Source: a virus
Direction: 5' to 3' (one strand)
Virus record (IMG/VR): IMGVR_UViG_3300022919_000011
Span: 1 to 24,381 of that record
DNA: 24,381 nt
Shown here: one piece after another, positions 2,470 through 11,617 of the stretch
Position numbering within the stretch: position 1 is the first letter of the stretch
Layout: the number at the start of each line of letters is the position of its first letter
Translations under genes and position numbers: made by a program
Notes under the pieces: generated by a model
What the model was told of the DNA's origin: nothing
Databases searched by the model: none
What the model saw: only the letters and a program-made list of their open reading frames with translations

Positions 2470-2769
2470 AATGAACAGTGACCAGACTGCGCCGACGCCC
2501 CATGAGATCAGCCAAACCACGGCGGTAATGCCCTGAACGATAAATATGGTCGCCACGGGATGATCGTTTTCTTCTGGCGTTTCCCGCTTTAGGCCGATTT
2601 TAAATAGGCCGACGAAAAGCAAAATCCCGACAGCTTGAAGATAAGTGATCGGCGCGATGTTGAACGTTCTGGCGATGAACCACGACCAGTAGTCCGACAG
2701 GATCACACCTCCAAGCAGTGTTAGCGGGATGCCAGTTAGAAACACCCAAGGTAGAGCCATGATTTTCAT
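2467..2769 (-). CDS. Small three-helix membrane protein, function unknown
   Basis: The protein has 100 residues. The start is ATG 2769-2767, which shares one base with the TGA of the upstream gapR-like gene (TGATG), so translation is probably coupled. A TTG one codon upstream is the less likely alternative. Three hydrophobic segments are visible, at about residues 5-25, 43-58 and 73-98. A charged loop (LKRETPEENDHP) separates the second and third. I recognise no family. A holin would fit the size and topology, but the gene is on the opposite strand from the lysis cassette and is paired with a DNA-binding protein, so I do not assign that role. It ends in tandem TAA stops before a leftward terminator. 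Confidence 0.7.
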   Translation of the reverse strand: MKIMALPWVFLTGIPLTLLGGVILSDYWSWFIARTFNIAPITYLQAVGILLFVGLFKIGLKRETPEENDHPVATIFIVQGITAVVWLISWGVGAVWSLFI

Positions 2770-3044
2770 CAAACTTCCCCCAGCGCGTTCATATACAGGT
2801 CGATAATCGCCTGCTCCTCTTGCCTTTTCGCTTTGTCCTGTTGGATCAATCGCACGACCTTGCGGAGCATCTTCACGTCATAGCCTTCACCCTTGGCTTC
2901 AGCATAGACTTCCTTGATGTCGAGTTGGACGGCCTGCTTATCGTCCTCAAGCCGTCCGATACGCTCCACGATGGTTCGCAGTCGGCCTTGTGCGGCCTGA
3001 GTAAGCGCGTCGTTTTCGGCGTCGAATTGTGTATCGTTTGTCAT
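2769..3044 (-). CDS. gapR: GapR-like nucleoid-associated protein (DUF2312)
   Basis: The protein has 91 residues, close to the roughly 90 of cellular GapR. The family signature is nearly complete: an N-terminal helix with LRTIVERIGRLEDDKQAV, then IKEVYAEAKGEGYDVKMLRK, then QQDKAKRQEEQAIIDLYMNA at the C-terminus. Cellular GapR of Caulobacter forms a tetrameric clamp that binds overtwisted, AT-rich DNA and helps topoisomerases ahead of replication forks; the basic residues in the second and third segments are the expected DNA contacts. The start at 3044 was chosen because TGGAGAGA lies a few bases before it; an upstream in-frame extension to 3095 lacks such a site. It is the first gene of a leftward two-gene unit. 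The phage role is inferred only. Confidence 0.9.
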   Translation of the reverse strand: MTNDTQFDAENDALTQAAQGRLRTIVERIGRLEDDKQAVQLDIKEVYAEAKGEGYDVKMLRKVVRLIQQDKAKRQEEQAIIDLYMNALGEV

Positions 3045-3067
3045 TGTTCTCTCCATTCTGACGCCCG

Positions 3068-3095
3068 ACCGTATCGCTAAAATCGGCATCGTCAA
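3068..3095 (-). promoter_or_regulatory. Promoter candidate for the gapR-like gene
   Basis: On the minus strand TTGACG (3095-3090) is followed after 16 nt by TACGGT (3073-3068), about 24 nt upstream of the start codon. The -35 is a near-perfect match to bacterial and Caulobacter-type consensus, and the -10 is poor. It sits in the 115-bp divergent interval that also serves the rightward gene at 3160. Confidence 0.42.
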
Positions 3096-3159
3096 ACATA
3101 TTTCTTGCCCTCCCCGATATTCCCAGCGTAGGGTTTCGGGATTGGAGATGGAGAGAATG

Positions 3160-3537
3160 ATGGAAAATTTTAAGGTTGGGGATCGGGTTCGTGTTAAATC
3201 CGAACCGGAAAGTTACACCGGGAGGCCTTACCCTTCCATTGGGATTAACGGAACAGTAGAATCAACGAGCCGAAACGGGCCGCAAGTTTTGCTAGACACG
3301 TACACCGATAGCAATAAGTCATGGGCCTATAAATGGGACGAGATCGAATTGATTCACAGTCCCGTTGTTTGTGACATCCGCGATCAGTTCGCCATGGCAG
3401 CTTTGACGGGCGTTCAATCGCTTCATCTTCTAGCCGTTAAAAGCGGTGGAAGTGGATACGGAAGCTCAAACGAAATGGCGCGCCAATCTTACGAACTAGC
3501 CGACGCCATGATGGCCGAACGGGAGCGGGGGAAGTGA
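3160..3537 (+). CDS. Phage protein with SH3/KOW-like N-terminus, function unknown
   Basis: The protein has 125 residues. Three in-frame ATGs are close together (3148, 3157, 3160). I chose 3160 because TGGAGAGA then stands at the same distance as it does before the gapR-like gene. Residues about 3-62 (FKVGDRVRVKSEPE, GINGTVES, VLLDTYTD, WDEIELI) look like a small beta-barrel of SH3/KOW type. The C-terminal half (IRDQFAMAALTG, SNEMARQSYELADAMMAERE) resembles a short segment common in small phage proteins of unknown role. The two halves may be a fusion. It opens a run of four overlapping small genes. A weak rightward promoter candidate (TTGCCC 3105-3110, 18 nt, TAGGGT 3129-3134) precedes it. Confidence 0.72.
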   Translation: MENFKVGDRVRVKSEPESYTGRPYPSIGINGTVESTSRNGPQVLLDTYTDSNKSWAYKWDEIELIHSPVVCDIRDQFAMAALTGVQSLHLLAVKSGGSGYGSSNEMARQSYELADAMMAERERGK

Positions 3538-8544: not shown

Positions 8545-8998
8545 AATATCTGGCGTGAACGTGCACCGCGCCCGCTTGGCCCGTATGCGGCGCGTATCGG
8601 ACCCAGCTTTGATCGCGCTATACGATCAGGGAGAGACGATCAGAAACGACGCAGCGAATTCGATTATCGAAGGCTCTGTGTCTGGGCCAGCGCACAAACC
8701 CTCGGCGCCAGGATCCCCGCCTAATCGAGACACGGGTAATCTAGACAAATCGATCGACGTTCGGATCAATAAGTCGCGTAAGACCGTGTCTGTGATCGCG
8801 CGCGCTGAATATGCAGCGGCTCAAGAATTCGGGACTAGCACGTTACCCGCTCGCCCATTCATGCGTCCCGCCTTGCAGCGGAATAAGGATCGCGTTGTAT
8901 TCGGCGTAGTGAAAGCCGTTAACGACGTGAACGTGAAGGTATTTAAGGGTCAGGTCGCGTTTGATCGGTCGAGGGCGAAGTATGAGGATGGCGGTTAG
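8537..8998 (+). CDS. HK97 gp10-like neck / tail completion protein
   Basis: The protein has 153 residues. The run DTGNLDKSIDVRI, then AEYAAAQEFGTSTLPARPFMRPAL is the classic HK97-gp10/DUF646 signature. These proteins sit in the neck near the head-tail interface. The start at 8537 was chosen over ATG 8531 because the GGGG at 8527-8530 then has 6-nt spacing. The preceding MuF gene overlaps by 8 bp. Its TAG stop overlaps the stop of the leftward gene coming from the other side. Confidence 0.88.
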   Translation: MAKISGVNVHRARLARMRRVSDPALIALYDQGETIRNDAANSIIEGSVSGPAHKPSAPGSPPNRDTGNLDKSIDVRINKSRKTVSVIARAEYAAAQEFGTSTLPARPFMRPALQRNKDRVVFGVVKAVNDVNVKVFKGQVAFDRSRAKYEDGG

Positions 8999-9294
8999 AG
9001 TTTGGTCGCTCTGTCGATTACGGCACGAGCAGTCCTGATCGAGCCGCGCGTGATGCGATAGGCATAGTGGCAGGGTTCATCGTCTGGGCCAGACGTAATA
9101 CCAAGGTTCGCGAATGGCGCTAGAGCGTTCAGCAATTCGGCCATCAGCTCATCAACAGGCCGAACCGCCATCATGGCCGCGTCCAGCGCTTCAAAATGTC
9201 CGTCTGCGTACTCACTGGCTTTTTGCTCCGTCGTGTACGTCCCGCCACACGCATCAACAGCGCGTTCAGCGGTTTTGTCAGGGTGAATTTCCAT
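8995..9294 (-). CDS. Small leftward hypothetical phage protein
   Basis: The protein has 99 residues. TGGAGAGA stands 8 nt before the ATG, the same leader as at the other leftward unit at 3044. The sequence resembles small soluble helical proteins frequent in phages of Proteobacteria (MAELLNALAPFANLGITSGPDDEPCHYAYRI given in two pieces: MAELLNALAPFANLG and DEPCHYAYRI), of unknown function. Cys and His are present near the middle and end, but no metal site is evident. It faces the neck operon with overlapping stops and likely belongs to a different expression class. Confidence 0.68.
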   Translation of the reverse strand: MEIHPDKTAERAVDACGGTYTTEQKASEYADGHFEALDAAMMAVRPVDELMAELLNALAPFANLGITSGPDDEPCHYAYRITRGSIRTARAVIDRATKL

Positions 9295-9886: not shown

Positions 9887-10117
9887 ATGCGCGTCCGCTT
9901 CACATCCCCCTTCGACTACGTCACCCTGCGCTCTAAATCGGGCACTCCACGGGCGTCTGTGGCCTATCAGCCGGGAGAACTGACTGTGCCGCGCGCGCAT
10001 GGGGAGGCGGCTGTAGCGGACGGGTATGCGGTGGAGATTGAGGCGCCGAAGGTTGACGAGGCGAAGGATGCGGGCGTTCACGGCAAACTCGTTCGGCAAA
10101 TCCGCGCCAAAAAATGA
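9887..10117 (+). CDS. Small structural-region protein
   Basis: The protein has 76 residues and starts 2 bases after the previous stop. The N-terminal half (MRVRFTSPFDYVTL, SVAYQPGELTVPRAHGEAAV) forms a small beta unit similar in style to the 68-residue protein at 6767, followed by a basic C-terminal helix (KLVRQIRAKK). Comparable short proteins occur in many phage head-tail clusters without a proven role. The last 4 bp overlap the tail terminator gene. Confidence 0.6.
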   Translation: MRVRFTSPFDYVTLRSKSGTPRASVAYQPGELTVPRAHGEAAVADGYAVEIEAPKVDEAKDAGVHGKLVRQIRAKK

Positions 10118-10554
10118 GCGTTGACCACAACCTCCAACTCCGACGCGCGATCCTACCCCTCATAAAGGTAGAGCCTGTCGTCGTGGAACTCGCAGGAATG
10201 CGAGTGTTTTCCGAGGCGCCGAAAGCCCTGCCAGCGTTCCCGTTCGTGCGCTACGGAAACAGCGACGGGACACCTACTGAGTGGTCATGCACGGAGGGAT
10301 CTGACAATGCCGGAACAATTCACATCTTCTCGCGCGCAGACGGAACCGACGAAGTCGCCAGACTCCGTCGCGCCGTCTGCCGTGCGATCGACGGAAAAAC
10401 AGTCCAGCTTGAAGCTGACGCGGACGACGGGAAATCGGCGACCGCGCTAAATATCCAGGTCACTTTCCTGCCGGCGATCTTCCGCGACACAGACGATGCG
10501 TCAGCGTGGCATGGGGTGATTAACTGGCAGACTGAGGTGGCGGAGGATTTCTAG
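10114..10554 (+). CDS. Tail terminator protein (DUF3168)
   Basis: The protein has 146 residues with the DUF3168 pattern: an N-terminal helix (NLQLRRAILPLI), a FPFVRYGN segment near residue 42, and TIHIFSRADGTDEVARLRRAV near residue 68 followed by beta strands. The family caps the tail tube and joins it to the neck, like HK97 gp10/lambda gpU neighbours. It starts in an ATGA overlap. Its TAG stop shares the palindrome CTAG (10551-10554) with the stop of the leftward gene. Confidence 0.82.
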   Translation: MSVDHNLQLRRAILPLIKVEPVVVELAGMRVFSEAPKALPAFPFVRYGNSDGTPTEWSCTEGSDNAGTIHIFSRADGTDEVARLRRAVCRAIDGKTVQLEADADDGKSATALNIQVTFLPAIFRDTDDASAWHGVINWQTEVAEDF

Positions 10555-11042
10555 TCTGGCGACAGAAGCGATTCTATAACCTTTTGTCGGGAGCCGTAAG
10601 ACTTAGCAAGAAGGTCTAGCCGCTCCCTCACCCTTCGAGAAAGCCTAACGGTGACTGTCGTGTAACCGCGATCAATCAGGCTCGCCATATATTTTCGGTG
10701 CGCTCTGGCTTGGGCCTCGGTTACAGATTTCTGGTGGGGCGTTTCAACTTCGGCGTGGCCGGATTCCTTAGCGACCCTTTCCAGTATTTCATAAGCTTGT
10801 TGATCGGTAATCCTGAACCATTCTCGCCCTCGAATGGGTCCGCCTGAGATTTCGCTAGCGAAAAAATGAGCCCGCCTCTCCATAGCGGCAACAGCCTTGC
10901 CATCCTCGAAAAACATTGCCGTCAAAAGCTGAATCGGTTTTCCGACGCTTGCTTCTAACTGGACCCGTCTAGATGACGGCTTCGCGGCAATTCCTATCTT
11001 GCGATATTCGCCGTCACACATGATGTAGATCGCGCGAGCCAA
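10551..11042 (-). CDS. GIY-YIG/Mug113-type domain fused to a ribbon-helix-helix-like tail
   Basis: The protein has 163 residues and starts at TTG with GGAGA 6-7 nt upstream; ATG at codon 8 would cut into the first strand. Residues 5-77 follow the Mug113/T5orf172 branch of the GIY-YIG nuclease fold: IYIM at 5-8, KIGIA at 15-19, Arg25, then E55, H59 and EWF at 74-76. Residues about 127-163 (TVTVRLSRRVRERLDLLAKS, then QKVIESLL) look like a ribbon-helix-helix DNA-binding domain. The second Tyr/Gly of a strict GIY-YIG motif is replaced, so nuclease activity is not assured. The gene is a leftward island inside the tail operon with its own promoter and an operator-like palindrome, suggesting self-regulation by the C-terminal domain. 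Confidence 0.75.
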   Translation of the reverse strand: MARAIYIMCDGEYRKIGIAAKPSSRRVQLEASVGKPIQLLTAMFFEDGKAVAAMERRAHFFASEISGGPIRGREWFRITDQQAYEILERVAKESGHAEVETPHQKSVTEAQARAHRKYMASLIDRGYTTVTVRLSRRVRERLDLLAKSYGSRQKVIESLLSPD

Positions 11043-11053
11043 TGGCTTCTCCG

Positions 11054-11069
11054 TATGTGTTTACACATA
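11054..11069. promoter_or_regulatory. Palindromic operator candidate
   Basis: TATGTGTTTACACATA consists of perfect 7-bp arms around a 2-bp TT centre. It lies between the -10 candidate and the ribosome site of the leftward gene and overlaps the -10 by 4 bp. That is where a repressor such as the gene's own ribbon-helix-helix-like domain would bind. Confidence 0.6.
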
Positions 11070-11094
11070 TAGCCCGCGCCATTCGTTCGGTCTA
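11066..11094 (-). promoter_or_regulatory. Promoter candidate for the leftward GIY-YIG/RHH gene
   Basis: On the minus strand TAGACCG (11094-11088) is followed after 14 nt by GCTATATG (11073-11066). Against the Caulobacter-type consensus TTGACGS-(10-14)-GCTANAWC it matches 5 of 7 and 6 of 7 informative positions. The start codon is 24 nt downstream. Confidence 0.48.
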
Positions 11095-11133
11095 TAAACA
11101 AAATCAAGCCCGCACTGGCAGGCGGTCATAGCA

Positions 11134-11147
11134 CCATCGGACGATGG
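11134..11147. repeat. Short inverted repeat before the tail tube gene
   Basis: CCATCGGACGATGG is a perfect 6-bp inverted repeat with a 2-bp centre; as RNA it would make a 5-bp hairpin with a GGAC tetraloop. It lies 26 nt before the tail tube start. It may be an operator, an mRNA-stabilising hairpin or chance. Confidence 0.3.
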
Positions 11148-11173
11148 CGCATCCCTTAGAAGGAGCCGCCCTT

Positions 11174-11617
11174 ATGGCGACTATCATTCCGATCAAGTTC
11201 GGTGACGAGGCTTTCCAGTTCGGCAACGGCGGCGATCCGACCGAACTTTTCAGCGAACCGTGCGGCATCACGGGCCGGTCGCGCAATTTCTCGATCAACA
11301 CGCAATCGGATGATCTGCCCGATTGTGATGAACCTGACGCGGTGTCGTTCGACAGCCCCTACAAAATCAGCGTGGGCGAATCGGTTGATCTGCAATTCGT
11401 CACGTCGGCGGCAATGGAACCGCTCATGACGGACCTTGCCTATAACGAGGCGAACACGAACGCGCGCTATGTGATCAACAAGGGGTCGCGAGACGGCTAT
11501 TACGAAGGTCCCGGCATCCTGACTGCGTTGTCCTTTTCGTCGGAACGTCGCGGCAACGTGACCGGAACGGCGACTTGGACCTGGACCGCTAAACCTGTTT
11601 GGGTTCCGGCTGCGTAA
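11174..11617 (+). CDS. Major tail tube protein
   Basis: The protein has 147 residues. AAGGAG (11160-11165) with 8-nt spacing gives one of the strongest ribosome sites in the window, fitting a protein made in many copies, and it decides this start over an in-frame ATG at 11144. The protein is beta-rich (ATIIPIKFGDEAFQFG, ISVGESVDLQFVTS, VTGTATWTWTAKPVWV) with a Trp-rich last strand, as in tail tube and GTA major tail proteins. Position between the tail terminator and the assembly chaperones supports the call. It would polymerise around the tape measure to form the DNA conduit. Confidence 0.75.
   Translation: MATIIPIKFGDEAFQFGNGGDPTELFSEPCGITGRSRNFSINTQSDDLPDCDEPDAVSFDSPYKISVGESVDLQFVTSAAMEPLMTDLAYNEANTNARYVINKGSRDGYYEGPGILTALSFSSERRGNVTGTATWTWTAKPVWVPAA

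Follow-up and report, generated by a model that had tools for sequence, protein, structure and literature searches.

The window analysed here is a 24,381-base virus record (IMGVR_UViG_3300022919_000011, positions 1-24,381) from a siphovirus-type phage, with genes for head and tail proteins. A single ORF on the opposite strand lies between the genes for the tail terminator and the major tail (tube) protein, in which a GIY-YIG domain is followed by a module resembling ribbon-helix-helix (RHH) proteins (Table 1). This fusion gene and the terminator gene stand tail to tail and have their stop in common (CTAG, 10551-10554). The leftward unit had been described in the original prediction as an island within the tail genes, in agreement with the approximately 550 nt of extra DNA found at 10555-11104; the span then given to it, 10551-11094, contains a real leftward ORF, which occupies 10551-11042. 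The whole fusion protein had no tblastn match in phages or plasmids, and scans of genome contigs with the whole protein and with the alignment of the RHH-like module gave no match.

Table 1. Features of the GIY-YIG/RHH-like cassette and its flanks, in window coordinates.
Feature	Position	Strand	Remarks
Tail terminator gene, left flank	10114-10554	+	PF11367 E=7.9e-12; phrog_176 E=1.1e-10
GIY-YIG/RHH fusion gene	10551-11042	-	163 aa, TTG start, single leftward ORF
RHH-like module	10554-10724	-	Residues 107-163; homologous over its whole length to separate small proteins of L001 and L003
GIY-YIG (T5orf172/MUG113-type) domain	10773-11042	-	Residues 1-90
Shine-Dalgarno-like GGAG	11049-11052	-	Upstream of the TTG start of the fusion gene
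Perfect 7-2-7 palindrome TATGTGT-TT-ACACATA, candidate operator	11054-11069	.	Exact match
Candidate promoter ATAGAC-17-CTATAT	11067-11095	-	By eye; absent from sigma-70 scan
Conserved leader of the tail tube gene, right flank, outside the cassette	11105-11173	+	Comparison with L003 and L001
Major tail (tube) protein gene, right flank	11174-11617	+	phrog_13196 E=3e-12

Other leftward genes are also present among the structural genes. A 99-aa ORF of unknown kind (8995-9294, minus strand), flanked by an HK97 gp10-like gene and the tail gene that comes next, marks a second possible cargo site in the window. Another leftward pair is formed by a gene for a GapR-like DNA-binding protein (2769-3095, minus strand; PF10073 E=1e-28) and an adjoining membrane moron (2467-2772; phrog_2169 E=1.9e-7). 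The GapR-like gene presumably points to an alphaproteobacterial host.

The claim that the N-terminal half follows the T5orf172/Mug113 pattern was upheld by profile searches. Residues 14-90 match T5orf172 narrowly above the Pfam cut-off (E=4e-4; 21.3 bits against 20) and lie at the cut-off for MUG113 (E=2.5e-4; 22.0 bits against 22.3), the MUG113 score with the frame neighbours of the protein being 22.8. In an alignment with four phage T5orf172 proteins, Y6, I7, K15, I16, G17, R25, E55, H59, E74 and F76 were invariant, so that the core Tyr, KIG, Arg and Glu of phage homing nucleases are all kept (Y6, K15-I16-G17, R25 and E55); the catalytic residues named for the phage nuclease Odn are Arg and Glu (PMC8263062). 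The best tblastn matches of residues 1-96 among 50,697 phage records had E-values of 0.2-7, too weak to stand alone, and those with an annotation were mostly endonucleases, GIY-YIG or homing endonucleases. The arrangement of domains differs from that of the four aligned proteins, in which the nuclease is C-terminal, with CapR/DUF4379 zinc fingers in front in two of the four, whereas here it is N-terminal and the RHH-like module C-terminal. No CapR, DUF723 or DUF4379 zinc finger profile matched the fusion protein; a zinc finger, present in 200 of the 229 proteins of a published T5orf172 homing set (PMC10448857), is usual in these endonucleases but does not define them. The full-length predicted model was poor (pLDDT 52, and 35-59 over residues 1-90, for which there were too few relatives), and it was set aside as fold evidence together with its PDB matches. 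PDB sequence searches returned nothing useful.

Counterparts of the C-terminal module occur in L001 and L003, fragments of two related phages that both derive from metagenome IMG/VR 3300020045; together with the window, these were the only three genomes in which the module was found. Residues 107-163 are 49% identical to a stand-alone protein of 61 aa in L003 and 46% identical to one of 57 aa in L001, and the similarity is present at the DNA level too. The proteins of the relatives start with MTPAQ where the fusion protein reads VTEAQ. Because Val107 thus sits where the relatives have the initiator Met, it appears from these sequences that the nuclease has taken up a complete small gene by fusion. 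When the module was modelled with AlphaFold2 together with the L003 and L001 proteins, the result was a 59-residue model with a pLDDT of 87, comprising a helix (5-20), an extended segment (21-31) and two further helices (32-45 and 48-56). This predicted topology of helix, strand, helix and helix fits an RHH fold with an extra N-terminal helix, the strand being putative, as the lone chain has no partner strand. RHH_1 did not match the module even at an E-value of 10, nor did any other RHH profile; the only matches were weak ones, to families that have no assigned function or are hard to classify. The separate profile searches with each half that had been proposed gave GIY-YIG matches for the first half but no RHH match for the second. 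The RHH-like character proposed for the last 37 residues nevertheless stands on two homologues and a confident model, although the unit comprises the last 57 residues or so. Its putative strand reads V-T-V-R-L-S in the window, V-T-V-C-L-S in L003 and V-T-I-I-L-N in L001. If, by likeness to known RHH repressors, T131, R133 and S135 are the base-facing positions, the three proteins may read different operators.

The two fragments also show what else can occupy this site. Their tail terminators are 70% (L001) and 59% (L003) identical to that of the window, and the tail tube of L003 is 86% identical. Leftward genes are found at the same terminator/tail-tube junction in all three (3/3), with extra DNA of 550 nt in the window and 811 and 948 nt in the other two. 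In L003, the RHH gene overlaps a gene for an HNH endonuclease (HNH_3 E=1.6e-7; phrog_59 E=6e-22), whose frame extends antisense into the terminator gene. The junction of L001 contains small ORFs, the RHH gene, again overlapping its partner, and a 94-aa ORF of unknown kind that ends at the terminator stop; profile searches recognised no nuclease partner among the neighbours of this module. At ten cassette-free loci, including some near-identical pairs, only 29-72 nt separate the terminator and tail tube genes, against 619 nt in the window, where the gap would be about 70 nt without the cassette. Since three leftward cassettes share one junction that spans only 29-72 nt elsewhere, the locus is, judging from these comparisons, a cassette open to exchange: the RHH protein is common to all, the nucleases it is combined with differ, and the two are fused here but separate elsewhere. 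No close cassette-free allele was found among the relatives, and therefore neither a homing site nor the precise junction can be read.

The same junction is occupied by different small ORFs in a more distant relative, L049 (11840-12468), and one of these ORFs begins like a lipoprotein; the junction may thus serve for cargo in less closely related phages as well. At another gene boundary, L001 carries an HNH_3-like endonuclease ORF (2670-3374, minus strand; E=3.4e-5, just below the cut-off).

The original prediction also placed a palindrome just upstream of the ribosome site, overlapping a candidate -10 and forming an apparent self-operator. The palindrome is exactly there, ending 2 nt before the GGAG, and it would lie over the expected transcription start if ATAGAC-17-CTATAT is the promoter. 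By eye, the candidate -10 does cover its first 3 bp, but a scan for sigma-70 promoters found none; we take the candidate to resemble alphaproteobacterial promoters. The whole window has 14 perfect 7-bp inverted repeats (loops of 0-6), which does not exceed the 14.7 expected by chance, and the probability of one falling in the intergenic upstream stretch is about 0.03-0.05. Having no T-run and lying upstream of the gene, the palindrome was set aside as a terminator. It is not conserved in L003 or L001, neither of which has an inverted repeat above chance, a result named beforehand as refuting. This non-conservation is not decisive, because the residues predicted to contact bases differ among the three RHH proteins. 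Upstream of the cassette start, the window and L003 do share a similar stretch, TTATA...GGCGCGGG..TATATG (P 0.0015 versus shuffles), which is not shared by L001. The palindrome can accordingly be regarded as a candidate operator but as nothing beyond that: its placement is good and its conservation is lacking, which leaves a self-operator plausible but weakly supported.

The leader of the tail tube gene, on the other side of the intergenic region, is nearly identical in the window, L003 and L001, except for the 5-bp stem of a hairpin (11131-11150, plus strand). Changes in this stem are compensatory while the GGA(C/T) loop stays constant, with four of seven pairs changed on both sides and 100% paired. 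Rfam gave no match for the hairpin, and a DNA-pattern scan for the leader had one match, in L034, which was rejected as an unrelated terminase. This pattern of variation suggests that the element is an RNA hairpin under selection, placed before the ribosome site. CsrA/RsmA sites typically have a GGA in the loop.

With the module C-terminal to the nuclease, the two-ended layout of a free-standing homing endonuclease is present, the module presumably providing DNA binding. We give an even chance to the interpretation that the fusion protein is such a homing-type nuclease, with an RHH tail for DNA binding and autoregulation, which spreads by cutting relatives. The leftward-transcribed cassette would have inserted between the tail-terminator and tail-tube genes; its N-terminal domain would cut DNA, and its C-terminal module would dimerise and supply DNA binding. 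The module would probably also repress the promoter of its own gene, in the way that I-TevI is both nuclease and autorepressor. Relatives that are cassette-free or differently loaded would be cut near the junction, and repair would copy the cassette in. Among the three roles offered in the original prediction (homing-type nuclease, exclusion factor against related phages, or regulator), homing has the most support, because the protein retains the catalytic Arg and Glu, its weak matches are mostly endonucleases and the L003 cassette pairs the RHH protein with an HNH homing-type endonuclease.

The second of those roles, a moron nuclease for superinfection exclusion or inter-phage competition, is the main rival but rather unlikely. 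Such a protein would be made in the infected or lysogenic cell and would cut the DNA of related phages or satellites while not itself being mobile. The gene is transcribed on its own, leftward and opposite to the late genes, as a moron would be, and residues 4-113 match positions 6-125 of 221 in PDC-S57, a PADLOC candidate-defence model (E=2.4e-8). However, PDC-S57 is a computed candidate family of which only about half the profile is matched, and the related cassettes hold an HNH homing-type gene or genes of unknown kind, with no known defence gene among them. Odn, a chimeric T5orf172 nuclease directed against satellite origins, is nonetheless a tested precedent for this role (PMC8263062).

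Somewhat less probable still, in our view, is that regulation came first, with the RHH protein as the repressor of a leftward accessory operon at this hotspot and the GIY-YIG domain as a passenger that has little or no activity or serves DNA binding. The RHH protein is indeed the constant element in 3/3 cassettes while its partners vary, L001 has no recognisable nuclease partner, and both the upstream stretch common to the window and L003 and the palindrome adjoining the ribosome site speak in favour of this reading. Drift without use would not be expected to preserve an intact catalytic Arg and Glu, though, and no conserved operator was found in L001 or L003. The intact core residues likewise make it less likely that the nuclease fold was kept only for DNA binding.

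We regard as improbable a variant in which the nuclease captured the repressor of its own locus, so that it would seek the operator of rival cassettes, cut them and replace them. The terminator/tail-tube junction of the phage group would then be the seat of a leftward accessory operon whose RHH repressor is shared, and nucleases and other cargo would turn over at one promoter. A toxin-antitoxin-like unit, with an RHH antitoxin and a partner toxin fused in the window, is very improbable: the overlap between the small RHH-like gene and its partner, seen in L003 and L001, is reminiscent of type II operons, but no known toxin family occurs among the partners, that of L003 is an HNH homing-type endonuclease, and toxin and antitoxin in one chain would be unusual.

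At one locus, a putative DNA-binding module occurs by itself and also as part of a nuclease, its separate and fused partners having two unrelated folds (HNH and GIY-YIG). How a local regulator might give rise to a sequence-guided phage nuclease can therefore be tested directly. Judged by title and abstract, none of the papers retrieved from an open-access library describes a protein with GIY-YIG and ribbon-helix-helix domains, and the word "ribbon" is absent from the text of the T5orf172 survey (PMC10448857). Within the open-access literature, the domain pair is probably undescribed so far.

The closest known systems each share part of this arrangement. The T5orf172 homing endonucleases of ICP1, T5-like phages and Kuttervirus have the same GIY-YIG type and invariant core residues, likewise lie between conserved phage genes, carry a modular DNA-binding part and swap their DNA-binding domains (PMC10448857). 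The phage T4 endonucleases I-TevI and Seg resemble the fusion protein in having an N-terminal GIY-YIG domain and C-terminal DNA binding, the latter putative in the fusion protein; Seg genes are free-standing copies between genes, as here, and I-TevI represses itself through an operator over its promoter (PMC2988022). Both use other DNA-binding folds, however, I-TevI is intron-encoded, and the operator of the fusion gene is a candidate only. Odn (ICP1 Gp88), as the fusion protein probably does, combines a T5orf172 nuclease with a DNA-binding domain that also exists in another protein, and it is a precedent for a new nuclease arising through exchange of DNA-binding domains (PMC8263062). The RepA_N domain of Odn comes from a satellite replication protein and targets the satellite origin, whereas the module of the fusion protein matches small proteins of the same locus; if it does bind DNA, an RHH-type module would be added to the DNA-binding parts used by T5orf172 nucleases.
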